A DNA stretch of 34,514 nucleotides. It comes from an uncultured Bacteroides sp. GTDB taxonomy: Bacteria > Bacteroidota > Bacteroidia > Bacteroidales > Bacteroidaceae. Of this stretch, positions 1 to 13,165 are shown piece after piece. Location of the stretch: assembly GCA_947173895.1 (NCBI GenBank), contig CAMWGU010000027.1, positions 1 to 34,514 of the forward strand, given 5' to 3'. Below the pieces are notes generated by a model. It saw only the letters and a program-made list of their open reading frames with translations. It was not told the DNA's origin and did no database searches. Made by a program: the position numbers and the translations under genes. Position 1 is the first letter of the stretch. Each line of letters opens with the position of its first letter.

Positions 1-266
1 CTTACCACCGTAAGGTGGCAAAGCGCTGTGGGCCTAGCCTACTGAAAGAGATTGCCGACCTGTGCGGTATTAAAAAGAACCTGACCACGCACACAGCCCG
101 GCACAGTTTCGCTTCGGTTATCGCACTGGCTAACAACGTGTCACTGCCGAACGTGGCTAAAATGCTGGGGCATTCATCTACGAGAATGACACAACACTAT
201 GCAAAAGTATTAGACCAAACTATTTTAAAAGATATGCAAGAGGTTGAAAAGCAACTTTCTATTTAG
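1..266 (+). CDS. Tyrosine recombinase (integrase), C-terminal end only
   Basis: This is the last 88 or so codons of a phage-type integrase; the frame stays open to the window edge (readable from base 3), so the GTG at 15 is not a real start. The catalytic C-terminal signature is visible: the HxxR box in HTARHSFAS, a LGHSS loop, and the tyrosine nucleophile in TQHYAKV about 20 residues from the end. In this family the enzyme cuts and rejoins attachment sites to integrate or excise a mobile element. Its place beside excisionase-like, primase and mobilization genes says it belongs to the element that fills the first 12-13 kb. The catalytic arginine I and the N-terminal domains lie outside the window, so completeness cannot be judged. 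Confidence 0.93.
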   Translation, partial: YHRKVAKRCGPSLLKEIADLCGIKKNLTTHTARHSFASVIALANNVSLPNVAKMLGHSSTRMTQHYAKVLDQTILKDMQEVEKQLSI

Positions 267-1555: not shown

Positions 1556-1837
1556 TCATTTTCTGTAATGCCTTTCCAGCAGGTCTAAAATCTCGCTTTC
1601 CCGGTAGATTATTTTTCCCGGAAGCTGCACGTACCCCAGCAGTCCCGTGTCTCTGTAATCCTGCAACGTCCGTTTGCTGATACAAAGCCGCTCGCATACT
1701 TCCTCGCCCGTCAAGTAGTGTTCACCGTTCAATACCGGGCGATAGTTCATTACCATGTACTCCACGTTTTCCAGCACCCTGTCGAGGGAGGAAAACAGTA
1801 CCAGCGTGATTTCGGAATCTTTCGTTATCAAATCCAT
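1556..1837 (-). CDS. Excisionase-like helix-turn-helix protein
   Basis: The 93-residue protein has a MerR/excisionase-type HTH in its C-terminal half: EEVCERLCISKRTLQDYRDTG, then the short wing GYVQLPGKIIYRESEI. Small proteins of this type in Bacteroidales elements control excision by binding att DNA or by regulating integrase and mobilization genes. The N-terminal 40 residues are not recognised. It follows the similar gene 1842-2129 after 4 nt, so they form one minus-strand operon that diverges from the HTH gene at 2469. The domain call is firm; the exact role is inference. Confidence 0.85.
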   Translation of the reverse strand: MDLITKDSEITLVLFSSLDRVLENVEYMVMNYRPVLNGEHYLTGEEVCERLCISKRTLQDYRDTGLLGYVQLPGKIIYRESEILDLLERHYRK

Positions 1838-1841
1838 ACGC

Positions 1842-2129
1842 CTACTTTTTAGAATTGTCCCTTACTTGGTTGAGCAGAAATGTTTCCACGTCTGAAGCCT
1901 TGTAGTAAATCTTATTGTTAATCTGCGAATAAGGCAGTTTTCCCGTATCACGGTAAGTCTGCATCGTTCGGGCTGAAACATTCAGCAAACGGCAAGTCTC
2001 GCAGTTATCCAGCCATTTGTCACGCTTCCTGCGTAAAGGCACGCAGAACGCATCCACACGACCCACAAAATTTTCAAACCTCTGTTTCCATAGTTCAAAA
2101 GTTTTCTTTTCAATCGTCACTATTTCCAT
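1842..2129 (-). CDS. Excisionase-like helix-turn-helix protein
   Basis: The 95-residue protein starts at the ATG at 2129; the longer open frame upstream (to 2396) has unlikely protein sequence and crosses a -7 box at 2177-2184, so it is rejected. The C-terminal half carries the same fold as its neighbour: CETCRLLNVSARTMQTYRDT followed by a wing with YYKASDVETFL. The N-terminal half is helical and basic. The YKASDV wing also occurs in the HTH protein at 7508-7867, so these are paralogues within the element. The likely role is excision or regulation together with the neighbour at 1556. Confidence 0.85.
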   Translation of the reverse strand: MEIVTIEKKTFELWKQRFENFVGRVDAFCVPLRRKRDKWLDNCETCRLLNVSARTMQTYRDTGKLPYSQINNKIYYKASDVETFLLNQVRDNSKK

Positions 2130-2176
2130 AACCGATATATTTATTCTTGTCAATACTCCGTTTTTCTTCACTGGTG

Positions 2177-2184
2177 CAAATATA
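2177..2184 (-). promoter_or_regulatory. -7 promoter box for the minus-strand HTH operon
   Basis: TATATTTG on the minus strand matches TAnnTTTG and lies about 48 nt upstream of the ATG at 2129. The rest of the 339-nt gap to the plus-strand HTH gene (2130-2468) holds no gene that I can support. Confidence 0.55.
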
Positions 2185-2407
2185 TAAGACTGAATGACAG
2201 GTTGTTTATCTCTGTCCGCAAATGACCTTGCGTGTCCGAAAATGTCCACCGCCAACCCAACAACAACACGAAAGAAACGAACCGATAACAAAAAAACTGT
2301 TTTTTCCCACTTCCTAAATAAGTAAGGTAACGAACACAAATCCGTTTTCCACTTGCCGATATTAATTTGAAGCAGAGCGAAGCAAAGCGAATCCAAACGG
2401 CTGGCAC

Positions 2408-2440
2408 TTTGTTTTTTACCGATTTTTCTTATTTTATTTG
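2408..2440 (+). promoter_or_regulatory. Possible -33/-7 promoter for the plus-strand HTH-VapE operon
   Basis: TTTG at 2408-2411 and TTTATTTG at 2433-2440 (one mismatch to TAnnTTTG) are 21 nt apart, 28 nt before the ATG at 2469. The spacing suits Bacteroides promoters, but the -7 box is imperfect. Confidence 0.4.
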
Positions 2441-2468
2441 TGGTGCTAATTCAAAAAAACAAGCACCT

Positions 2469-2777
2469 ATGAACAATCCTTTCGAAGAAATTTTCAAGCG
2501 GCTGGAGAACATCGAAAAGATGATTGCCCCGGTCATGGGCGTACAACCCGAAGAACGGCAGGACGGAAAAGAGCCTGTGTTAGTCAAAATATCCGTTGCC
2601 AGCGGTATAACCGGGTATTCGGTCAATTACCTGTACCACTTAGCCAGCAAGGGACTGATACCGTGTGTCAAGCGTGGGCGTACCCTTCGTTTCGACATGG
2701 AGGAACTCAAAAAGTGGATGCAGCAGCAGTATATCCCGGCTTCTAACAGACTTCCCGATGAAAAAGAAAAGAAGTGA
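2469..2777 (+). CDS. Helix-turn-helix DNA-binding (excisionase-like) protein
   Basis: The 102-residue protein starts at the ATG at 2469; the open frame extends upstream to 2367 but passes through the likely promoter. The N-terminal 35 residues look like a short coiled coil (EEIFKRLENIEKMI). The rest is an HTH_17 domain: KISVASGITGYSVNYLYHLA, then KGLIPCVKRGRTLRFDMEEL. Proteins like this precede VapE/primase genes in Bacteroidales mobilizable elements and are taken as excision factors or repressors. Its end overlaps the VapE gene by 20 nt, so the two are translated together. Confidence 0.87.
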   Translation: MNNPFEEIFKRLENIEKMIAPVMGVQPEERQDGKEPVLVKISVASGITGYSVNYLYHLASKGLIPCVKRGRTLRFDMEELKKWMQQQYIPASNRLPDEKEKK

Positions 2778-3990
2778 TGATGCACGGCACATCGAGGGCT
2801 GGCAGTCAAAGAACGAGCGCATAGAAAGCCTGTTGAACGTCCTGTACGATTTCCGGTTCAACACCGTAAAGAGCCGGACGGAATACCGGACTGCGGGTTC
2901 TTCGGGCTTGTACCAGCCCGTTACAAAATTTGTCCTGAACTCGTTCAGGCGTAGGCTGGATGCGACCGCTGGTATTGTCACCTCTGCCGAGAACATCCGT
3001 ACCATACTAGAAAGCGATTTCGCAAGAAAGGTACATCCCATACGGGAATACTTCAACGCCCTGCCACTTCTTAATCCAACCGAACATGGGCATATCGGTA
3101 GGCTTCTGAACACGGTACAAGTAGCCAACCCCGGCAAATGGGAGGAATATTTCACGAAATGGCTTATCGGTGTGGTAGCCAACGCCATGAATGACACGGG
3201 ATGTCAGAACCATACCTGTTTGGTATTGACCGGGGACAAGCAGGGACAGTTCAAATCGTGGTGGCTGGACAACCTTTGCCCGACACCGCTTAAGAACTAC
3301 CTGTTTACCGGAAAGATAGACACGCAGGGCAAAGACATCCTGACACTGATAGCCGAATACCTGTTCATCAACATTGACGACCAGCTAAAGGAACTCAACA
3401 AGCAGAACGAGAACGCATTGAAGAACCTTATCACCACCCCGGCGGTGAAGTACCGCAGACCGTATGACGTTTACATAGAGGAATATCCCCACCTCGCCAG
3501 CTTCATGGCTTCGGTGAACGGCAACGAGTTCCTGACCGACCCGACAGGCAGCAGGCGTTTCTTGCCGTTCGAGGTGCTGCGCATAGACAAGCCCACGGCA
3601 GAAAGTATTCACATGGATAACGTCTATTCCGAAATCATGTACCTGTACCGTCAGGGCGTACGCTACTGGTTCAATGATGCGGAGATTGGGGAACTGCACC
3701 TGACAAATGCGGAATTTGAGGTGCAGACGGTCGAGTTCGAGATGCTGGCACAATACTTTGAGAAGCCGACAGAGGGGGAAGAAGCCCTGTTTTTTATGAC
3801 AACGGCACAGATACTGGCACGCTTACGGGATATATGCCCCATGCAACTATCCGAAAAACGGCTGGGGGAAGCGTTACGCAAAGCCGGGTTCAAACGGGTA
3901 CAGAAACGTATCGACAAACAGACCTATTCGGTATATGGGTACAGGATAAAGCCTGTTCCAACATCCTATACAAACAACGATTACGGTTAG
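2758..3990 (+). CDS. VapE-family P-loop ATPase (virulence-associated E, helicase-like)
   Basis: The 410-residue product starts at the ATG at 2758, 20 nt inside the end of the HTH gene. It matches the VapE family, whose P-loop domain resembles the helicase part of phage-type primases and serves replication of mobile elements. The P-loop is at about residues 157-165 (TGDKQGQFKS); it keeps Lys-Ser but has Phe where the usual Gly stands. A Walker B-like FINIDDQ lies about 50 residues later. A conserved basic motif, DPTGSRRFLPFEV, follows, and the C-terminal winged part (SEKRLGEALRKAGF) is as in DUF3874-type ends. The heptamer region and Toprim primase come next, suggesting one replication module. 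Confidence 0.85.
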   Translation: MKKKRSDDARHIEGWQSKNERIESLLNVLYDFRFNTVKSRTEYRTAGSSGLYQPVTKFVLNSFRRRLDATAGIVTSAENIRTILESDFARKVHPIREYFNALPLLNPTEHGHIGRLLNTVQVANPGKWEEYFTKWLIGVVANAMNDTGCQNHTCLVLTGDKQGQFKSWWLDNLCPTPLKNYLFTGKIDTQGKDILTLIAEYLFINIDDQLKELNKQNENALKNLITTPAVKYRRPYDVYIEEYPHLASFMASVNGNEFLTDPTGSRRFLPFEVLRIDKPTAESIHMDNVYSEIMYLYRQGVRYWFNDAEIGELHLTNAEFEVQTVEFEMLAQYFEKPTEGEEALFFMTTAQILARLRDICPMQLSEKRLGEALRKAGFKRVQKRIDKQTYSVYGYRIKPVPTSYTNNDYG

Positions 3991-4013
3991 CACGGTCATT
4001 TTACAATTGGGTA

Positions 4014-4295
4014 TTACTGCAACGCAGTAACTGCCATAGTAAGATATATTTTTATTTTATAGCCTGTATATCAAATTTTTAATAATAGCGCAGTAAGCAG
4101 TAAGATAAAACCGCAAACTTTTGGAAAAGTTTGGAAAAAGAAAAAACGCAGGATTTATCAGGGTTATATTTCTATCTTCTTTTGAAGAAATAACTTACTT
4201 ATCTTACTGCATAAGAGATAATCCGCTGAAAAAAAAAGAATTATGCGCAGAAACATAGCAACTTTTCTTCTTACTGACTTCTTACTGTGCTACTG
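4014..4295. repeat. Repeated CAGTAAG heptamers, candidate origin or Rep-binding region
   Basis: The 335-nt gap between VapE and the primase gene contains exact CAGTAAG at 4091-4097 and 4098-4104 (tandem) and its complement CTTACTG at 4203-4209, 4270-4276 and 4280-4286. Near copies are at 4014-4020 and 4024-4030 (a 7-bp dyad with 3-nt loop), 4038-4044, 4194-4200 and 4289-4295. AT-rich tracts lie between them (4040-4080). The arrangement, direct copies on the left and inverted copies on the right next to replication genes, resembles an iteron origin or a repressor array for the primase promoter. No gene is seen here. Confidence 0.6.
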
Positions 4296-4325
4296 CAATT
4301 TATCAACATCAAAAAAATAAAGACT

Positions 4326-5306
4326 ATGACCTACAAGGAAGCCAACAATATCAGTATCAAGGATTACCTGAACTCTTTGGGAATCCAGCCCGTCACGGAA
4401 AAGGGAAGCTACGGGATGTACCGCAGCCCCTTACGGGAGGACAACACACCGAGTTTCAAGGTGGATTATAACGCCAATCTATGGTGTGACTACGGAACCG
4501 GCGAGGGCGGGACGCTCATCGACCTTGTGATGAAGCAGAACGGGTGCAACGCCTACGGTGCTATCTGCCGACTGGGGCAGGGCGACACAGCCTCTTTTTC
4601 CTTTCACGGGAAAGACCTGCCCGAAAGGGACACGAAAAGGCAGGCAGCCAGCCCGATAGAGATACGCAGAATACAGCCGTTACAGAACCCGGCACTCATG
4701 CGCTACTTGCAGGAAAGGGGGATTTCCCCCGGGACGGCAACCCCATACGTGCAGGAGATGTATTACCGCATCGGTGGAAAGCCTTATTTTGCGCTGGCGT
4801 TCAGGAATGATTCAGGAGGTTACGAGCTTCGCAATCCCCGTTTCAAGGGCGGCACATCAAAAGACATCACCCATATAAGGCAAAAGGGAGAGCCGAGAGA
4901 TACCTGTTTCGTGTTCGAGGGCTTTATGGATTTCCTCTCATTCCTCACTATCCGGCAACAGAAAAGCCCGGATATGCCCTGTACCGACTGGCAGGACTAC
5001 GTTATCCTGAACTCCACCGCCAACGTAGATAAAGCCTTATATCCGTTGGCTGGTTACGGGCATATACACTGTATGCTTGACAATGACGAGGCAGGCAGGA
5101 AAGCGGTTGAAGCCATAAGGCAGGAATACAAATGGCGTGTACGTGACGCATCACACCTGTACAGCGGTCACAATGACCTGAACGACTATCTGCGTAGCCT
5201 TAAAGTGAAGCAATCCCAACATTTGACAGTTACCGACAAGCCCCAGCCGGAGCATGATAACAGACAAAATCCGGGTGAAAAAAGAAAGAGAGGGCTAAGA
5301 ATGTGA
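4326..5306 (+). CDS. Toprim-domain DNA primase (DnaG/CHC2-like) of the element
   Basis: The 326-residue product starts at the ATG at 4326. The N-terminal region (about residues 28-75) has the CHC2 zinc-finger layout, with TPSFKV and GEGGTLIDLV, but three of the four metal ligands are missing: SPLR replaces CPFH, and only one Cys remains in WCDYG. The Toprim catalytic domain is complete, with the EGFMDFLSF glutamate at about residue 198 and LDNDEAGRKA at about 251-260. In the family this makes RNA primers for replication or conjugal complementary-strand synthesis. It lies after the heptamer repeats and before the mobilization genes. The C-terminal tail is basic (KRKRGLRM). Confidence 0.88.
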   Translation: MTYKEANNISIKDYLNSLGIQPVTEKGSYGMYRSPLREDNTPSFKVDYNANLWCDYGTGEGGTLIDLVMKQNGCNAYGAICRLGQGDTASFSFHGKDLPERDTKRQAASPIEIRRIQPLQNPALMRYLQERGISPGTATPYVQEMYYRIGGKPYFALAFRNDSGGYELRNPRFKGGTSKDITHIRQKGEPRDTCFVFEGFMDFLSFLTIRQQKSPDMPCTDWQDYVILNSTANVDKALYPLAGYGHIHCMLDNDEAGRKAVEAIRQEYKWRVRDASHLYSGHNDLNDYLRSLKVKQSQHLTVTDKPQPEHDNRQNPGEKRKRGLRM

Positions 5307-5356
5307 CCTGCAAGGCTGGCGGCATGAACCGACGGCAGGCTGTGTGATTAGGGAGA

Positions 5357-5408
5357 GCAAGGTTATGTTTCGGTAGACCGAAACACCTTGCTTTGCTTGA
5401 CAGCAAAG
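5357..5408. other. Candidate origin of transfer (oriT): two adjacent dyads
   Basis: A nested 35-bp dyad (GCAAGGT 5357-5363, GTTTCGGT 5367-5374, ACCGAAAC 5377-5384, ACCTTGC 5385-5391) is followed at once by CTTTGCT (5391-5397), loop TGAC, and AGCAAAG (5402-5408). It lies 55 nt upstream of the mobilization operon, where oriT is found in related Bacteroides mobilizable elements. The nick site cannot be placed from sequence alone. The whole 156-nt gap 5307-5462 holds no gene. Confidence 0.6.
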
Positions 5409-5462
5409 AAAATTTCTCCCGTTGGTCGCAATTTTTAAGATACCACCTAAAAGCAAAAACGT

Positions 5463-5846
5463 ATGACAGGGATAAGGAACAAACCGGGAGGTCGCCCGGC
5501 AAAAAGCCGGATAGACAAGCAGAACCGGGTAGTCAGCACGAAACTGACCGAGTTACAGTTCTACGCAATCAGGAAGCGAGCCGGGGAAGCCGGGCTGCGT
5601 GTCAGCGAGTACGTCCGGCAGGCGGTCGTTTCGGCAGAGGTGACGCCCCGGCTGAACAGGCAGGATGCGGACACTATCCGCAAGCTGGCAGGGGAAGCCA
5701 ACAACATCAACCAACTGGCGCGCCGGGCGAATGCCGGAGGGTTCGCACTGGTAGCGGTGGAACTGGTGAAACTCAAGAACAGAATTGTCGAAATCATAAA
5801 ACGGTTGTCGGATGATTGGAAAAATAAGAAAGGGAAACGGATTTAA
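5463..5846 (+). CDS. Relaxosome accessory protein (MobA/MobC-like, ribbon-helix-helix)
   Basis: The 127-residue basic protein has the ribbon-helix-helix layout of plasmid relaxosome accessory proteins: VVSTKLTELQFYAIRKRAGE, then RVSEYVRQAVV, and a C-terminal helical part with NINQLARRAN that is typical of the Bacteroides MobA/BmgB and MobC families. Such proteins bind oriT and help the relaxase to nick it. The gene overlaps the relaxase gene by 35 nt, as is normal for the pair. It starts 55 nt after the candidate oriT dyad. The N-terminus is lysine- and arginine-rich (RNKPGGRPAKSR), fitting DNA contact. Confidence 0.88.
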   Translation: MTGIRNKPGGRPAKSRIDKQNRVVSTKLTELQFYAIRKRAGEAGLRVSEYVRQAVVSAEVTPRLNRQDADTIRKLAGEANNINQLARRANAGGFALVAVELVKLKNRIVEIIKRLSDDWKNKKGKRI

Positions 5847-6735
5847 AGGCTGCGTGAACTATGTACTCGGCAAGGAACAGGCAACCTTGCTTCATGCGGA
5901 GGGAGTGTTGGCGGAAAGCAACCGGGACATCATACGCAGTTTCATTCTGCAAGCCGGGATGAACCCCGACCTGAAAAAGCCAGTCGGACATATTGCGCTA
6001 AGCTATTCCCCGGTGGACGCACCCAAGCTGACAGACGGGAAAATGGTACAGCTTGCGCAGGAGTACATGCGTGAAATGAAAATCACCGATACGCAGTACA
6101 TCATCGTGCGCCACCAAGACCGGGAGCATCCGCACGTGCATATTGTGTTCAACCGTATAGACAACAACAGCAAGACCATTTCGGACAGGAACGACATGTA
6201 CCGCAACGAGCAGGTATGCAAGAAGCTGAAAGCTAAACACGGGTTTTATTTCGCTAAAGGCAAGGAGCATGTAAAGCAGCACCGTTTGAGAGAGCCGGAC
6301 AAATCCAAATACGAGATTTACAATGCCGTAAAGGATGAAATCGGGAAATCAAGGAACTGGCAGCAGTTACAAACCCGACTGGCAGAAAAGGGTATCGGGA
6401 TTCATTTCAAGTACAGGGGACAGACTGGCGAAGTGCAGGGCATATCCTTTTCCAAAGGTGGATACACGTTCAAGGGTTCGGAGATAGACCGCAGTTTCAG
6501 TTTCTCCAAGCAGGATAAATGTTTCGGGGATGCGGGGCTGAACACTACCGGAAGCAACCGACAGACGGTTTTCGCACCTGTTCAGGAGCCAGCGCAGACA
6601 CCGGGCAAAGCCGACAGTCCGTTACTGGCAGGCTTGGGCGGTCTGTTCTCTGCCCCGTCCTCTCCGGCTGATGAAACGCCCGACAATCCCGGTGAAAGAA
6701 AAAAGAAGAAAAAGAAACGACACTTAAAATTATAG
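5812..6735 (+). CDS. Relaxase/mobilization nuclease (MobB-like, MOBP type)
   Basis: The 307-residue product is a relaxase of the Relaxase/mobilization nuclease family. The probable nucleophile tyrosine is at about residue 17 (GCVNYVLG). The HUH-type metal motif is clear at residues 101-110: HQDREHPHVH, followed by IVFNR. Such enzymes nick one strand at oriT, stay bound to the 5' end and lead the DNA into the recipient through the conjugation channel of a helper element. No type IV secretion or coupling-protein genes are in the window, so this element would be mobilized by another. The C-terminus is low-complexity, proline-rich and ends in a long lysine stretch. The start overlaps MobA by 35 nt. 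Confidence 0.93.
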   Translation: MIGKIRKGNGFKGCVNYVLGKEQATLLHAEGVLAESNRDIIRSFILQAGMNPDLKKPVGHIALSYSPVDAPKLTDGKMVQLAQEYMREMKITDTQYIIVRHQDREHPHVHIVFNRIDNNSKTISDRNDMYRNEQVCKKLKAKHGFYFAKGKEHVKQHRLREPDKSKYEIYNAVKDEIGKSRNWQQLQTRLAEKGIGIHFKYRGQTGEVQGISFSKGGYTFKGSEIDRSFSFSKQDKCFGDAGLNTTGSNRQTVFAPVQEPAQTPGKADSPLLAGLGGLFSAPSSPADETPDNPGERKKKKKKRHLKL

Positions 6736-6739
6736 GAAC

Positions 6740-7465
6740 ATGGAAAATAACTTAATTTTGGAGGGGCTTCTCTCTATGGTTACGGAACTGAAAGAACGGC
6801 AGGAGAAGCAGGTAACGCCAGCCAGCCGGGAGGAAACGATTAACCGACTGGACGTTATCGAACAGCGCATTTCGGAAATGCAGGGCAAATCCGGCATTAC
6901 TGAAAACATGGTGCAGGAGATTCTAAACCAAATCGGCAGTATCGGAAAAGGGCAGTCCGGGAACCAAAAACAGGACCTTGAAGATATAAAGGGGCTTATC
7001 GTGACCTCGCACCGATATTTCAAGGAGCGGTTAAAGGTGTTGTTCCCGGCTGATGATACACCAGCCGGAGAAATAACGCCCGTTTCATGGTACGGCAAAC
7101 TGACATACCGGGTAACTCCCTGTCTGAAGCCCAAGTTCTTTCTTCTTTCAGCAGGGATAATCATTTGCCTTGTGTCGCTTGCATTGAATGTGCGGTTTAT
7201 ACAAAGAATGCAGCGGTTACAGGACAACGATATAAAATACCGCTATATCCTGATGAAAGGAAAGGCAGACGGCAGCAGCCTTGATTTGCTGGAAACGAGG
7301 TTCGGCAGGGAACGGGACAACGATTTCATCCGAAGCCTGACCGATTCGGTGAAAGGCTTTGAATACCGCAGCAGAAAGCAGGCGGAAGCGTTGGAACGGG
7401 CAAGGCTGTTAAACGAGCAAGCCGAGCAGCTAAGGGAGCAAGCCGACAAATTAGGCAAGCCATAA
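6740..7465 (+). CDS. Mobilization protein MobC-like, single-pass membrane protein
   Basis: The 241-residue product begins 4 nt after the relaxase stop and is the last gene of the mobilization operon. It has an N-terminal coiled-coil-rich part (about residues 1-70), one transmembrane segment at about 132-152 (FFLLSAGIIICLVSLALNV), and a charged C-terminal coiled coil (about 205-240, glutamate/glutamine/arginine-rich). A protein of this layout is regularly the third gene of Bacteroidales mobA-mobB-mobC sets. A role in linking the relaxosome to the membrane is plausible but is inference; the sequence has no enzymatic motif. Confidence 0.8.
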   Translation: MENNLILEGLLSMVTELKERQEKQVTPASREETINRLDVIEQRISEMQGKSGITENMVQEILNQIGSIGKGQSGNQKQDLEDIKGLIVTSHRYFKERLKVLFPADDTPAGEITPVSWYGKLTYRVTPCLKPKFFLLSAGIIICLVSLALNVRFIQRMQRLQDNDIKYRYILMKGKADGSSLDLLETRFGRERDNDFIRSLTDSVKGFEYRSRKQAEALERARLLNEQAEQLREQADKLGKP

Positions 7466-7475
7466 AACAAAAGCG

Positions 7476-7505
7476 AAGCCGGAACAGAACCGCCCCGGCT
7501 TTTTA
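7476..7505 (+). terminator. Rho-independent terminator after the mobilization operon
   Basis: AAGCCGG (7476-7482) pairs with CCGGCTT (7495-7501) around a 12-nt loop and is followed by a run of T residues. It sits 10 nt after the MobC stop and also at the 3' end of the convergent HTH gene. Confidence 0.85.
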
Positions 7506-7507
7506 AT

Positions 7508-7867
7508 TCACTTCTTTTTCTTCGTGCAGTGTTCTTTCTCGAACTGGCGCAACGAGGTGACGCTGAACCGCTCCTTGATGAACTCCCGGACATCGGAAGC
7601 CTTGTAGTACACTTTTCCGCTGATTGTGAAGTACGGCAGCGCACCGATAGCCCGGTAGCGTTGCAGGGTCTTGATACTTACTTTGAACAGCAGGCACAAG
7701 TCCTGATTATCCAGCAGGTTGTCATCTTCGGGCAGCACCCTGTCGGCATTGCGCAGTACCCGTACATCCTTGCAGAGTTCTTCCAGTTTGGCGTACAGCT
7801 TCTGCATCCATACGCTGAAATCGTCATTGTCTATATACATGATTGCTTCATTTTTCTGATTATACAT
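7508..7867 (-). CDS. Excisionase-like helix-turn-helix protein
   Basis: The 119-residue protein has an HTH_17-type domain in its C-terminal half: NQDLCLLFKVSIKTLQRYRA, then GALPYFTISGKVYYKASDVREF. The YYKASDV wing is shared with the HTH protein at 1842-2129. The N-terminal half is helical (KLYAKLEELCKDVRVL). The ATG at 7867 is used here; the ATG at 7840 (MYIDNDD) is an alternative that loses nine residues. A weak -7 box (GAACTTTG, minus, 7893-7900) lies upstream. It converges on the mobilization operon and is the fourth such regulator on the element; a role in control of mobilization or excision is likely. Confidence 0.85.
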   Translation of the reverse strand: MYNQKNEAIMYIDNDDFSVWMQKLYAKLEELCKDVRVLRNADRVLPEDDNLLDNQDLCLLFKVSIKTLQRYRAIGALPYFTISGKVYYKASDVREFIKERFSVTSLRQFEKEHCTKKKK

Positions 7868-7970
7868 TATGGTCTGTCAATCGATTGATGAAGCAAAGTT
7901 CAGAAAACAGGTGCAAAGAAATTATAGGGGAACTAATGGAATCCCCTATAAATAAATCGTAAGCCGTTGG

Positions 7971-8381
7971 TTATCTGTACCCTTTCTTGTCATGTTCCTT
8001 TTTGATAAGTTCTACCAATCCATTAAGAAACCCGGTCAGTTTGCCCGGCTTTCGTTTTATCACGTCCTCATGTTTTTGGTAACAGTCGCCTATCTTGATG
8101 TTGAACAGCCATTCAAAGGCTTTCGCCAAGTCCACCAAGTAGGCGGGCTTGCCGTTCTGATACACGATGTCTTTGGAGAGGAACAAACCGCTTACCATTT
8201 CCATGATGTTGATAAGGGTTGTCTTGTCAGCGAGGTAGAGAGGGGAAAGTGGTTGTGTATTAGAATGTGTCCTGAACTGTTCGGGATATTTAATTCGTAA
8301 CCTTATAATATAAATTTCTGTATTTATTATTCCTATTGCTTCATCAATAAATTGCGTAAAGGGTATTTTCCTTTTGCCCAA
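7971..8381 (-). CDS. RteC-like regulatory protein, short or truncated
   Basis: The 136-residue frame has features of the C-terminal region of RteC-type proteins of Bacteroides transposons: SPLYLADKTTLINIMEMVSG, then LVDLAKAFEWLFNIKIGDCY and a basic RKPGKLTGFL helix. RteC activates excision genes of CTnDOT-like elements. There is no ATG at the front of the frame: the first possible start is TTG at 8381, inside the end of the upstream 79-residue gene (38-nt overlap). Either this is translated by coupling from a TTG, or an older longer gene was broken or frameshifted here. The family call is moderately sure. Confidence 0.65.
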   Translation of the reverse strand: MGKRKIPFTQFIDEAIGIINTEIYIIRLRIKYPEQFRTHSNTQPLSPLYLADKTTLINIMEMVSGLFLSKDIVYQNGKPAYLVDLAKAFEWLFNIKIGDCYQKHEDVIKRKPGKLTGFLNGLVELIKKEHDKKGYR

Positions 8382-8583
8382 ATTGCATACGATACAATTT
8401 GAGCTTGTTTAATCCCATTGAATAAAAACGTAATAGGACTGCATAATCCTGTTCTACTGTACTTATTTCTACTAAATAAGCAGTCAATTCATTGATAGCA
8501 TCTGTCAACTCTGCAACAGATGCTTTGTGTTGAGTATATTCAGACAATAACTGAAATATGCTCAATTCAAGGATTCTTTTCAT
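8344..8583 (-). CDS. Small hypothetical protein upstream of the RteC-like gene
   Basis: The 79-residue product is not recognised. It is mostly helical (ELSIFQLLSEYTQHKASVAEL) and has no signal peptide or membrane segment. It starts 10 nt after the hydrolase stop and overlaps the RteC-like frame by 38 nt, so the three genes could be one minus-strand transcript from the promoter at 9184-9191. Together with the next frame it would make about 205-210 residues, close to a full RteC, so it may be the N-terminal part of a frameshifted RteC-like gene. Confidence 0.5.
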   Translation of the reverse strand: MKRILELSIFQLLSEYTQHKASVAELTDAINELTAYLVEISTVEQDYAVLLRFYSMGLNKLKLYRMQFGQKENTLYAIY

Positions 8584-9641: not shown

Positions 9642-9649
9642 TAATTTTG
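9642..9649 (+). promoter_or_regulatory. -7 promoter box for the AlbA_2/helicase pair
   Basis: TAATTTTG matches TAnnTTTG and lies 20 nt before the ATG at 9670. It is followed by GTATCATC, which shares ATGATAC (as its complement) with the HxlR dyad. Confidence 0.6.
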
Positions 9650-9669: not shown

Positions 9670-11046
9670 ATGCTGAATACAGAAACCATACAATCACTCA
9701 TCGATAGCGGAGAAGGCTATAATGTAGAGTTCAAAGTTCGTGTTCCTTCAAAGGTTCGTGAACTAACAGAGGAAATTTGCGCTTTCGCTAATGCTGACGG
9801 AGGATATTTGCTTATCGGCGTAGATGATAACGGACAGATTATTGGTACAGGTTTGGAAAATGACAAACGTTCAGCCATTCAAGGCTCTATCAGTGAAATA
9901 TCTCCGGCTCTCCATTGTGATATGTATGCGGTAAATATCGAGGATAAGACAGTTTGGGTAATTGATGTTCCGTCAGGGAAAGATAAACCTTATATATTTT
10001 CCGGTTCTATCTATGTGCGTGAGGGAGCGAACTCGCAAAAACTTCGCACAGCCGAAGAAATGCGCAGCTTCTTTCAGGAATGTAACAAAATCTTTTTCGA
10101 CCATATACCCTGCCATTGGTTCAATATCTACACGGATGCGGATGAACAGATGATTAAGGATTTCCGAACAGAAGCCAAACTTAGTCCATCCACACCCGAC
10201 AAACAAATATTTGAGAACTTGGAACTGTTTACCGAGAATGGAACGGCAAAGAACGGTGCAGCGATGTTCTTCGGAAAACAACCTGAACGAAAGTTTCCAC
10301 ACGTTGTTACAAGATGTGTTCTTTTCAAGGGAACGAATAAAGTCTATATTATAGATGACAAAACTTTCAGAGGTTCATTGTACCAACAGTATTTACAGGC
10401 TATGTCTTGGCTGGAAAGCAAACTGCAAGTAGCTTATAAAATAGAGGGAACAGGACCAAGAGAGGAAATTTGGGAAATCCCTCTGACCGTATTTAAAGAA
10501 GCTATTATAAACGCCTTGTCGCACCGTGATTACTACGAACAAGGCGCAAGCATTATGATAGAAATGTTTGAAGACCGGGTAGAGATTTCCAATCCCGGAG
10601 GACTTTTACCTGTTGTAGCTAAAGACTTTGGACACAAAAGCATGACACGTAATCCGCTAATATTCGGATTATTTACCCGTATGCACTTGGTAGAAAGAGT
10701 TGCATCCGGTATTCCCCGTATGCAAGAAGCTATGAGAGAAGCAAATCTTCCTGAACCGGAATTTCATACGGACGGGATGTTTACGGTTATATTCAAAAGA
10801 GGTATCAGTATCAAGAATGATACTGTAAATGATACTGTAAATGATACTGTAAACTCAAAAGAACAGGAAGTACTAAATATCATCAAGCAATATCCTGGAC
10901 TTAATTCGTCTAAGATTGCAGGATTAATAGGCAAAAGTGTTCCGACTGCTAAACGCTACTTAAATTCTTTGGTTAGATTAGATTTGATAGAGTTTAGAGG
11001 GGCACAGAAAAATGGAGGATATTATTGGAATAGCCCAAAGAGATGA
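9670..11046 (+). CDS. AlbA_2 (Schlafen-like) domain ATP-binding protein with C-terminal HTH
   Basis: The 458-residue protein has three parts. An AlbA_2/Schlafen domain (about residues 14-125) shows EFKVRVPSKVRELTEEICAF followed by ANADGGYLLIGVDDNG. A GHKL-type ATPase domain (HATPase_c_4, about 270-370) shows KEAIINALSHRDY and VEISNPGGLLP. The C-terminus (about 395-450) is a winged helix (LNSSKIAGLIGKSVPTAKRY) after a linker with a triple NDTV repeat. The family is often annotated as a RecG-like or transcriptional regulator; its biochemical role is poorly known and some members sit in phage-defence loci. It precedes the DUF2075 helicase by 55 nt on the same strand, probably in one operon. Confidence 0.88.
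   Translation: MLNTETIQSLIDSGEGYNVEFKVRVPSKVRELTEEICAFANADGGYLLIGVDDNGQIIGTGLENDKRSAIQGSISEISPALHCDMYAVNIEDKTVWVIDVPSGKDKPYIFSGSIYVREGANSQKLRTAEEMRSFFQECNKIFFDHIPCHWFNIYTDADEQMIKDFRTEAKLSPSTPDKQIFENLELFTENGTAKNGAAMFFGKQPERKFPHVVTRCVLFKGTNKVYIIDDKTFRGSLYQQYLQAMSWLESKLQVAYKIEGTGPREEIWEIPLTVFKEAIINALSHRDYYEQGASIMIEMFEDRVEISNPGGLLPVVAKDFGHKSMTRNPLIFGLFTRMHLVERVASGIPRMQEAMREANLPEPEFHTDGMFTVIFKRGISIKNDTVNDTVNDTVNSKEQEVLNIIKQYPGLNSSKIAGLIGKSVPTAKRYLNSLVRLDLIEFRGAQKNGGYYWNSPKR
10816..10851 (+). repeat. Three tandem copies of a 12-bp repeat inside the AlbA_2 gene
   Basis: AATGATACTGTA occurs three times without change (10816-10827, 10828-10839, 10840-10851) and encodes NDTV three times in the linker before the C-terminal HTH. 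The unit is four codons, so gain or loss keeps the frame. Confidence 0.85.
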
Positions 11047-11101
11047 AACACCAAGTAAAAATTATCATCATATTTAAAATTAGTATTTGCAAATTTGCCC
11101 T

Positions 11102-12538
11102 ATGAAAAGTGTCAATATTCTATCTATCATAGAAGCTTATCGAAAACTAAGTAATACACTATTCCAAAAACTTATGAATAGTTACGGAATAATCAGTGGA
11201 ATAAAAGATTACGAGCTTAATGGTATAGAGTCTTTTGTGAATGAATTATTAAAAATAAAAAATAACATCACCATTGTTAACAACTATTATTTAGGATATT
11301 CAATACCACAAATTGGAAAAGAATTTGATTTACTTAGATTTGGTGATAATTATATTATCAACATAGAAATAAAAACGGAGAGTTCAATAGACAAGATATT
11401 CAAACAACAGCAAAAGAATAGATACTACCTCGAGTTCTTGGATAAGGAAGTTTATATCTATACCTATATTTTAAACGAAAATAAGCTTTATAAACTCATA
11501 ATAAAAGATAGTAATAATGAAATAAAAGAAGCGACTTTTAATGAGTTGTGCAACAAGCTGTTTCTTCAAGAAGTAGTAACATTCAACAATATTGATGATT
11601 TATTTAATCCATCCGACTATTTAGTTTCTCCTTTCAATTCTCCTGAAAAATTTATGGCAGAAGGATATTTTCTTACAGTCCAACAAGAACAAATATATAA
11701 TGAAATCCGAACAAAGTTATCTGACGCAACAACAAAATTCATAGCTTTAACAGGTAGTGCAGGAACAGGCAAAACATTATTGACTTATCATATAGCTAAA
11801 GAAAGCATTCGGAAAGGCGAAAAAGTACTTATTTTACATTGTGCTCCACTAAATAGTGGTCACAAAATCTTAATGGAAGAATATGGTTGGAGCATACATA
11901 TGCCTAAATATGCTCCGAATACGACAGATTTTGACTTAATTATAATTGACGAAGCCCAACGAATGTATCCATATCAATTTGATAAATATATAGAAGAAGT
12001 ACGCACTTTCAATAAAAAATGCATATTCTCATACGATGAAAACCAATACTTGCGTGATAATGAGAAAAATTACCATACCAAAGAAAGGATTGAAAAAGAA
12101 TTATCATGTACCCCCTATAAGCTAACAGATAAAATTAGAACAAATAAAGAAATTGCATATTTTATAAGACAACTTTTCAATCTCAAAAAGAATATATCCA
12201 ACATAGACTATCCCAACATTGAACTTACATATTGCAAAAATTATTTTTCTGCAAAATCATTGCTGCAAAAATTATCGAAGAAAAACTGGAAAGTGCCTAA
12301 TTACACACCGGGAACGCGCTCAACCTTCCATTATGAAGCATACTTATCCGGTGATACAGAAAGTGCACATTCTGTAGTTGGTCAAGAGTTCGACAACGTT
12401 GTGATAGTCATAGATGACTCTTTTAAATATAATTCTCAAGGAGATTTAATTGCTGATAATACTTATTATTCGCAAAGACAAATGTTATATCAAATAATCA
12501 CTAGGACAAGAAAAAAAACTGCATATTGTAATAATTGA
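11102..12538 (+). CDS. PD-(D/E)xK-like nuclease fused to DUF2075 (Schlafen group 3-like) helicase
   Basis: The 478-residue product starts at ATG 11102 (a TTG at 11087 is less likely). An N-terminal domain has a restriction-nuclease-like pattern: Asp76 in GKEFDLLRF, then Glu89-x-Lys91 in INIEIKTE. A superfamily-1 helicase domain of DUF2075 type follows: Walker A GSAGTGKT at 218-225, Walker B IIDEAQR at 281-287, SYDENQY at 310-316, and VVGQEFDNVVIVIDD at 425-439. The frame ends abnormally after RTRKK: with one A fewer in the A8 run at 12511-12518 it would continue for 22 more residues with family-like sequence to the stop at 12582-12584. The gene is very AT-rich and probably cotranscribed with the AlbA_2 gene. 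A defence role is inference. Confidence 0.82.
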   Translation: MKSVNILSIIEAYRKLSNTLFQKLMNSYGIISGIKDYELNGIESFVNELLKIKNNITIVNNYYLGYSIPQIGKEFDLLRFGDNYIINIEIKTESSIDKIFKQQQKNRYYLEFLDKEVYIYTYILNENKLYKLIIKDSNNEIKEATFNELCNKLFLQEVVTFNNIDDLFNPSDYLVSPFNSPEKFMAEGYFLTVQQEQIYNEIRTKLSDATTKFIALTGSAGTGKTLLTYHIAKESIRKGEKVLILHCAPLNSGHKILMEEYGWSIHMPKYAPNTTDFDLIIIDEAQRMYPYQFDKYIEEVRTFNKKCIFSYDENQYLRDNEKNYHTKERIEKELSCTPYKLTDKIRTNKEIAYFIRQLFNLKKNISNIDYPNIELTYCKNYFSAKSLLQKLSKKNWKVPNYTPGTRSTFHYEAYLSGDTESAHSVVGQEFDNVVIVIDDSFKYNSQGDLIADNTYYSQRQMLYQIITRTRKKTAYCNN

Positions 12539-12758
12539 CAATGAAGTCATGTTAGATAGATGTATAGATATTCTAAATAAATAATTTCATCGACTTACTA
12601 ACAAAAATCTAAATTAAAGAATTTAATATCAGAAAATGTACTATCTTCGCATTCAGAAATCGTACCCAAGATACAAACTTGTGTTGAACGGTGCAAAGCT
12701 GTGAAAACCTTATTCAAGGGACTTACATCGTAGCAAAGATATAACTTACTGAGAGATA

Positions 12759-12794
12759 GTGCCATATCAAACCGTTTTCGGTTGCTGGTGGCAC
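12759..12794. other. Two-step dyad of unknown role
   Basis: GTGCCA (12759-12764) pairs with TGGCAC (12789-12794), and inside it AACCG (12770-12774) pairs with CGGTT (12779-12783) around TTTT. It has no T-run; it could be an RNA hairpin or a recombinase or excisionase site near the element end. Confidence 0.4.
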
Positions 12795-12818
12795 CACTTT
12801 GAAAGAAGGCGAAACGAA

Positions 12819-12855
12819 AAAAACTCCTGATTTCCAAACGAAATCGGGAGTTTTT
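12819..12855. terminator. Strong bidirectional terminator hairpin
   Basis: A 16-nt arm (12819-12834) pairs with 12840-12855 with a single G-T wobble and a 5-nt loop; there are five A before and five T after, so it can end transcription from both sides. No clear gene ends next to it. Confidence 0.8.
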
Positions 12856-13165
12856 GTTTTCCGAGGGGACGCGAAAAGCGGCAGAATATTACCGTTTCCG
12901 GTGTTCCAATCGGTGAAGCAAGAAAGGTGGAACGTGAATCTCCACCGATTGCCAATAGTGTAAGCATTGAGAATGTGGCAAAGGCAGAAACCTATGTATA
13001 GTTGAGGTTCATCCCGTCAGCCACTTGTTCCCGATGCTTTAAAATTGTTTTTGGCCACCATGTTTGATTAAATTTCGCAAAAGGCCAACTCCTTCACGAT
13101 ATGAGTTTCGACCTGACGCACACTGGAAGAATTTTCTGGCAGCTATCGTATAGAGTTGGATTATC

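Follow-up and report, generated by a model that had tools for sequence, protein, structure and literature searches.

A probable Nhi/AbiO-type defence gene beside a bacterial Schlafen gene, in a proposed cargo slot of a Bacteroides mobilizable element

We analysed a 34,514-nucleotide (nt) stretch of DNA from an uncultured Bacteroides sp. (contig CAMWGU010000027.1, positions 1 to 34,514; referred to below as the window), which carries an integrative mobilizable element with two adjacent genes, P1 and P2. Taking the explanation as a whole, we consider it likely that P2 is a single-gene anti-phage nuclease-helicase of the AbiO/Nhi family and that it occupies an exchangeable cargo slot of the element, beside an independent bacterial Schlafen gene, P1. 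On this reading, a Bacteroides-like host carries an AbiO/Nhi defence gene on a mobilizable element, and the slot behind the bacterial Schlafen gene is able to carry different defence modules, either Nhi or a type VI retron. The features of the two genes are as follows.

9670..11046, plus strand: P1, bacterial Schlafen-type protein (AlbA_2, HATPase_c_4, and winged helix-turn-helix [wHTH]) of 458 amino acids (aa), from Pfam
11023..11046, plus strand: P1 3' end, from protein ranges, BLASTN ranges, and junction sequences
11102..12538, plus strand: P2, putative Nhi/AbiO-type nuclease-helicase, from PADLOC AbiO and Nhi, PF09848, and motif conservation
11102..11650, plus strand: P2 N-terminal PD-(D/E)xK-like domain, from residues kept in 21 of 21 aligned sequences and the model topology
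12511..12518, plus strand: A8 run where the P2 frame departs from the frame of its relatives, from comparison with those relatives

P2 is a probable Nhi/AbiO-type nuclease-helicase

The P2 open reading frame (ORF) spans 11087 to 12538; it opens at TTG 11087, and its likely start is ATG 11102, to which the P1-P2 gap of 55 nt is counted. Residues 6 to 477 of 483 match the PADLOC models (PDLC02350, PDLC02372) AbiO (E 2.9e-162; model positions 1 to 448 of 468) and Nhi (E 4.9e-162; model positions 1 to 450 of 470). The Pfam domain PF09848 (SLFN-g3_helicase), earlier named DUF2075, is present in P2 (E 1.6e-11) and in all 8 members of alignment A3. The Walker A (GSAGTGKT) and Walker B (IIIDEAQ) motifs are intact in the translation, and the helicase residues G228, K229, D288, E289, Q320, R351, G432, E434, T472, and R473 are each conserved in 21 of 21 aligned sequences.

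In the N-terminal domain, D81, E94, K96 (numbered from 11087), and Q107 are identical in the window and all 20 aligned relatives (21/21). The AlphaFold model places D81 on the strand of residues 79 to 86, E94 and K96 at the end of the next strand (89 to 96), and Q107 in the helix of residues 101 to 118, an order of predicted strands and helix that is PD-(D/E)xK-like. The mean predicted local distance difference test (pLDDT) score of the model is 71.1, with ten-residue means of 65 to 95 over residues 1 to 170; it falls below 50 across most of residues 351 to 483, and we therefore make no claim on the second RecA lobe. A phmmer search of the PDB with the N-terminal domain gave no matches, Foldseek returned no Schlafen among the top 50 for P2, and the top 50 from a viral structure library were mostly helicases and PhoH-like ATPases, which are uninformative on the N-terminal domain.

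These results bear on a first-pass annotation of the same DNA, which had given the same 55-nt gap, an end at 12584 (corrected here to 12538), a DUF2075 helicase with both Walker motifs, and a nuclease-like N terminus built around Asp76, Glu89, and Lys91. The helicase is confirmed by Pfam and the translation, and the last three residues, which correspond to D81, E94, and K96, agree with the conservation and with the strand order of the model, so that the nuclease-like assignment probably stands. Its suggestion of an anti-phage role gains support for P2 from the predicted AbiO/Nhi family membership; the AbiO/Nhi identity itself had been missed.

Passages of PMC10732053 describe Nhi of Staphylococcus epidermidis as activated by the phage single-strand-binding protein and propose a model in which it degrades phage DNA, and passages of PMC11084316 have it detecting and degrading phage replication intermediates. 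If P2 works as Nhi does, phage replication intermediates covered with single-strand-binding protein would be recognised by its superfamily 1 (SF1) helicase part and cut by its PD-(D/E)xK part.

P2 relatives were found in 2 of 61 genomes of the genus, 5 of 301 of the family sample (2 of them weak partial helicase matches), 2 of 393 of the order sample, and, at E 1e-20, 1 of 395 of the phylum sample; each count includes the window's own genome, and the family, order, and phylum counts are lower bounds, few candidates having been scored per genome. Matches were present in 82 of 72,556 plasmid records, 57 of them covering at least 80% of P2, and in 4 of 50,697 phage records. Judged by these matches, the spread of P2 relatives is that of a mobile defence gene. 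Similar to AbiO and Nhi, P2 has the same domain order and the catalytic and helicase motifs, and its relatives also occur on plasmids without AlbA_2 in the flanks (11 of the 82 records examined) and in the phage records; unlike AbiO and Nhi, it follows a bacterial Schlafen gene within a mobilizable element and has a frame that stops early.

One relative, 77% identical to P2 of the window, lies on a 3,577-base contig (L012) filed under a Candidatus Gastranaerophilales metagenome-assembled genome, and this may be a mis-binned Bacteroidales contig. In the Streptococcus phage records MK448847.1 and MK448846.1 (H62, H63), the Nhi relatives are at the extreme record end, the usual position of prophage cargo genes. 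In L014 (12191-15167), the Nhi relative directly follows a Fic/DUF4172 gene of the same strand; in L016 (4091-12078), type I methyltransferase and specificity genes are followed by the Nhi relative and then by a RhuM-like gene (PADLOC PDC-S05) and a Fic-like gene (by eye).

P1 has the architecture of a bacterial Schlafen

Pfam assigned residues 15 to 125 of P1 to SLFN_AlbA_2 (E 1.1e-23), residues 292 to 375 to HATPase_c_4 (E 3.1e-25), and residues 397 to 441 to HTH_24 (E 7.8e-6), the three parts named in the first-pass annotation and together the AlbA_2-HATPase-wHTH architecture of a bacterial Schlafen. E15, E20, and K22 have the same spacing (E-x4-E-x-K) as E209, E214, and K216 of SLFN11, which passages of PMC9482658 give as essential; in an alignment of 17 of 27 P1-type proteins, E15 and K22 are kept in 17 of 17 and E20 in 16 of 17. 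In an alignment with 8 of the 13 viral-contig P1 relatives (21 to 28% identity), the three residues are absent from the invariant positions; rows L100, L103, and L105 of that alignment start past residue 22. The AlbA_2 lobe of the P1 model is alike in fold to that of Schlafen structures. The best reading is that P1 is a bacterial Schlafen with a predicted intact E-E-K site and a module separate from P2. Once triggered, P1, with its predicted E-E-K RNase site, ATPase lobe, and DNA-binding tail, might cleave tRNA or regulate genes.

In architecture and E-E-K site, P1 is like the bacterial Schlafen (AlbA_2, minimal histidine-kinase ATPase, and wHTH) that passages of PMC12839542 place beside BREX loci; unlike the protein described there, P1 has no recognised BREX gene nearby and lies beside Nhi or, in the locus L044, a type VI retron. 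P1 was also considered as part of an Argonaute. The PADLOC prokaryotic Argonaute (pAgo) matches (E 1.8e-23) are probably due to pAgo models with fused AlbA_2-type regions, fusions of a kind reported in passages of PMC6299218, and Pfam found no PIWI domain in P1 at E 0.001. As a single-sequence query against viral contigs, P1 gave no relatives.

Upstream of P1 lies the following motif.

9642..9649, plus strand: TAATTTTG, Bacteroides-type -7 box, 28 nt ahead of P1, from a motif match

The sequence TAnnTTTG, which we take to be the Bacteroides -7 box, is found at -26 to -29 of the start in all 8 P1 copies examined (window included), and none is present in the P1-P2 gap of the window; in L012 and L014, P2 relatives without P1, it is found at -104 and -88, respectively. 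A shared transcript of P1 and P2 in the window is plausible, and it would reflect the landing site of P2, not one joint machine.

P1 and P2 occur mostly apart

The first-pass annotation had proposed that the two genes form a two-gene "split long Schlafen" and had asked whether they are mostly apart in other genomes, as they are in the sample seen. None of 39 other P1-type loci had a P2 relative in the flanks examined. These comprise 3 loci from the same genome, 23 from the family sample (the split gene L025/L038 being taken as one locus), and 13 from viral contigs, with flanks of 1.5 kb per side or to the contig end for genome loci (L026 is cut off ahead of its downstream side) and of up to 5 kb for viral loci; for nine of the genome loci the search also covered larger extracts (12.8 to 19.9 kb), that of L041 having just 1.1 kb downstream of P1. 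Conversely, 20 other P2 loci (4 near relatives, 11 plasmid records out of the 82, and 5 viral contigs) were scanned with a P1 profile and an AlbA_2-domain profile, and 18 of them gave nothing up to E 10, the flanks of L012, L050, L059, and L061 being short. The remaining two hold decayed pieces only, a P1 remnant in L011 from Xylanibacter muris (E 5.3e-8) and a short AlbA_2 start of differing sequence in L016 (E 0.008). Among the loci seen, an intact P1-P2 pair is present only in the window; P2 relatives without AlbA_2 in the flanks examined are found, for instance, beside a Fic gene (L014) or on plasmids, and a plasmid megablast with the P1-P2 pair gave no matches.

In X. muris, the homology to window positions 10672 to 12579 is unbroken, with 79% nt identity. 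The P1 part, aligned over 345 positions at 75.7% identity and with 39 gap columns, contains 6 to 12 stops per frame, its longest open stretch being 83 codons. P2 is an open frame of 496 aa, 82.2% identical to that of the window over 1,400 gap-free positions, and the ratio of nonsynonymous to synonymous substitution rates (dN/dS) is about 0.08 at a dS of 1.09, which is near saturation; on this estimate, X. muris P2 is under purifying selection. P2 has thus outlived P1 in X. muris, which argues against an obligate pair.

A probable cargo slot near the right end of the element

The element comprises the following features.

15..266, plus strand: tyrosine integrase C-terminal fragment, cut by the contig start (PF00589, E 3.8e-11)
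2665..7465, plus strand: element backbone (Pfam; L044 comparison), with the next five genes
2665-3990, plus strand: VapE-like gene
4287-5306, plus strand: Toprim/Zn-ribbon gene
5463-5846, plus strand: MobC/NikA-like gene
5812-6735, plus strand: MobA/VirD2 relaxase
6740-7465, plus strand: ORF without Pfam match
12642..12892, no strand: right-hand part of the element, common to L044 (86.5%), from BLASTN

The mobile setting suggested earlier is borne out by the integrase fragment and the VapE-like, Toprim, MobC/NikA-like, and relaxase genes; integrase and MobA/MobC together mark an integrative mobilizable element, whose left end is beyond the contig. A sister element, L044, from a genome of the same family, has a backbone 91% identical in nt over window positions 1746 to 8403, and its P1 is 93.8% identical across the first 1,115 nt, weaker beyond, and 87% identical in aa overall. 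Between P1 and the right end, at the slot that holds P2 in the window, L044 carries a type VI retron (11311-12730) with HTH_VI (E 2.3e-29), RT_VI (E 3.2e-81; RVT_1, E 6.4e-14), and a small ORF ahead. P2 thus fills the same slot behind a close P1 as this retron, and the defence genes differ. The GC content is 29.5% for P2, 30.5% for the retron reverse transcriptase of L044, 40% for P1, and 49 to 56% for the five backbone genes. In addition, the alignment of seven close P1 copies (L017-L023) stops at residue 452 or 453, short of the 458 in P1. The simplest reading is that a slot behind P1, near the right end of the integrative mobilizable element, would accept different modules. The 0/39 and 18/20 counts, the X. 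muris copy, and L044 together argue that P1 and P2 do not travel as a unit; they look like neighbouring cargo, not halves of one split Schlafen.

Comparison with long Schlafens

P1 and P2 resemble the group III (long) Schlafens SLFN5, SLFN11, and SLFN14 in the fold of the AlbA_2 lobe (P1) and in the SF1 helicase family (P2). Unlike those proteins, in which core, linker, and helicase are in one chain, they are two genes, P1 has a single AlbA_2 lobe, and the HATPase and wHTH domains stand in between; P2 appears to have an active nuclease domain where Schlafens have a linker to which passages of PMC8789055 give no known function. Among the loci examined, the two halves show no conserved linkage (0/39 and 18/20).

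A structural question is thereby raised, whether the Schlafen linker and the Nhi nuclease domain are related, the linker being an inactive PD-(D/E)xK nuclease. By eye, the Schlafen linker and P2 both show a strand with a D and a K-Q helix, and the distance to Walker A is comparable. The VIA rows 7zel_A, 9erd, 7zep_A, and 9uie_B (SLFN11/SLFN14) span the P2 N terminus with a large root mean square deviation (RMSD), giving first and last residues only, and the SLFN14 entry 9nyy_A aligns the helicase alone (model 175-352, RMSD 2.7). When 21 Nhi N-regions were compared with 3 Schlafen linkers by hhalign, only the Q-motif/Walker A part aligned; the whole N-region at other settings gave a probability of 0.1, and removal of the Walker part left a score of 7.3 over 19 columns off the active site, a score reached or exceeded by 5 of 200 column-shuffled controls. 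PF21026 had no match at P2, its single match in 4 genomes (E 0.53) being elsewhere. Equating the Schlafen linker with the Nhi nuclease domain was set aside, there being no profile-level link between the linker and the P2 N-terminal domain. We regard it as most improbable that long vertebrate Schlafens arose when an AlbA_2 RNase joined an Nhi/AbiO-type nuclease-helicase whose nuclease then decayed into the linker, with the element here holding both parts, arranged as in Schlafens, as a functional two-gene defence.

Alternative explanations

Several observations weigh against P2 being an active defence gene that came to lie beside an independent P1. Homology between the window and X. muris covers the P1 3' end, the intergenic region, and P2, the X. 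muris P1 remnant staying similar from that end across the intergenic stretch into P2; the joining is, on this alignment, common to two genera, and P1 would have joined P2 before both copies diverged. Two of the 4 closest relatives have AlbA_2 material adjoining P2 (L011 and, with a weak match, L016, among type I restriction-modification [RM] genes); with just 5 AlbA_2 matches in the window's own genome, this neighbourhood appears to be non-random, exceeding what random placement gives; clustering in defence islands could account for it. Finally, the P2 frame stops at 12538, past the A8 run, with a differing tail, and this copy may be inactive or misassembled. All 4 close relatives extend further beyond the same KK, and the matching letters sit in a different frame 3' of the A8 run; we left the frame as read. 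It is possible, if short of probable, that P2 here is a dead copy missing the C-terminal strand and helix; against this, the remainder of the frame is open and conserved, and an assembly error at the homopolymer is possible in this draft genome (143 contigs).

The two genes might instead act together as a long Schlafen in two chains, with P2 sensing phage or stalled-fork DNA and P1 cleaving tRNA. We find this very unlikely, given that the intact pair is confined to the window among the loci seen, that a retron occupies the same slot in L044, and that X. muris has a dead P1 and a retained P2; moreover, P1 has HATPase and wHTH domains, which are absent from the three-part Schlafens as passages of PMC9482658 present them, and the linker has no profile-level link to the P2 N-terminal domain. 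It is less improbable, yet still unlikely, that P1 is a backup effector, abortive and tRNA-cleaving, layered on P2 or on any defence cargo behind it, as proposed for BREX-adjacent Schlafen RNases. P1 lies ahead of two different defence modules on sister elements, and one close copy (L041) adjoins type I RM genes; however, apart from L041 and L044, the other seven of nine larger P1 neighbourhoods (L042, L043, L045-L049) show no defence gene recognised by eye, with one L043 neighbour scanned by PADLOC and giving no match, and this P1 is not known to have phage-dependent toxicity. P1 could also be a non-enzymatic transcription regulator, its AlbA_2 domain binding nucleic acid beside the ATP-binding lobe and winged helix. 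HATPase_c_4 and HTH would suit this role, as would the varied surroundings of P1 copies, with no fixed partner; simple DNA binding would not require the E-E-K residues, which are kept in nearly all aligned sequences short of the distant viral-contig relatives, and we doubt that P1 acts in this way. We therefore continue to favour an Nhi/AbiO-type defence gene in a swappable slot beside an independent bacterial Schlafen gene.

Other features of the window

No tRNAs and no Rfam matches at the gathering threshold were found within the window. Divergent isochorismatase and HxlR-type regulator genes lie between the backbone and P1 (8594-9624), with no BLASTN match in L044 at E 1e-5, and an RteC-like regulator fragment (PF09357, E 9.4e-7) is on the minus strand at 7971-8381. 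A dispersed repeat of about 120 nt is located at 12777-12897; 36 of 301 family genomes match a 341-nt query at E<=1e-10, nearly all over this part only, and a second copy is present in the same genome (G000:C104).
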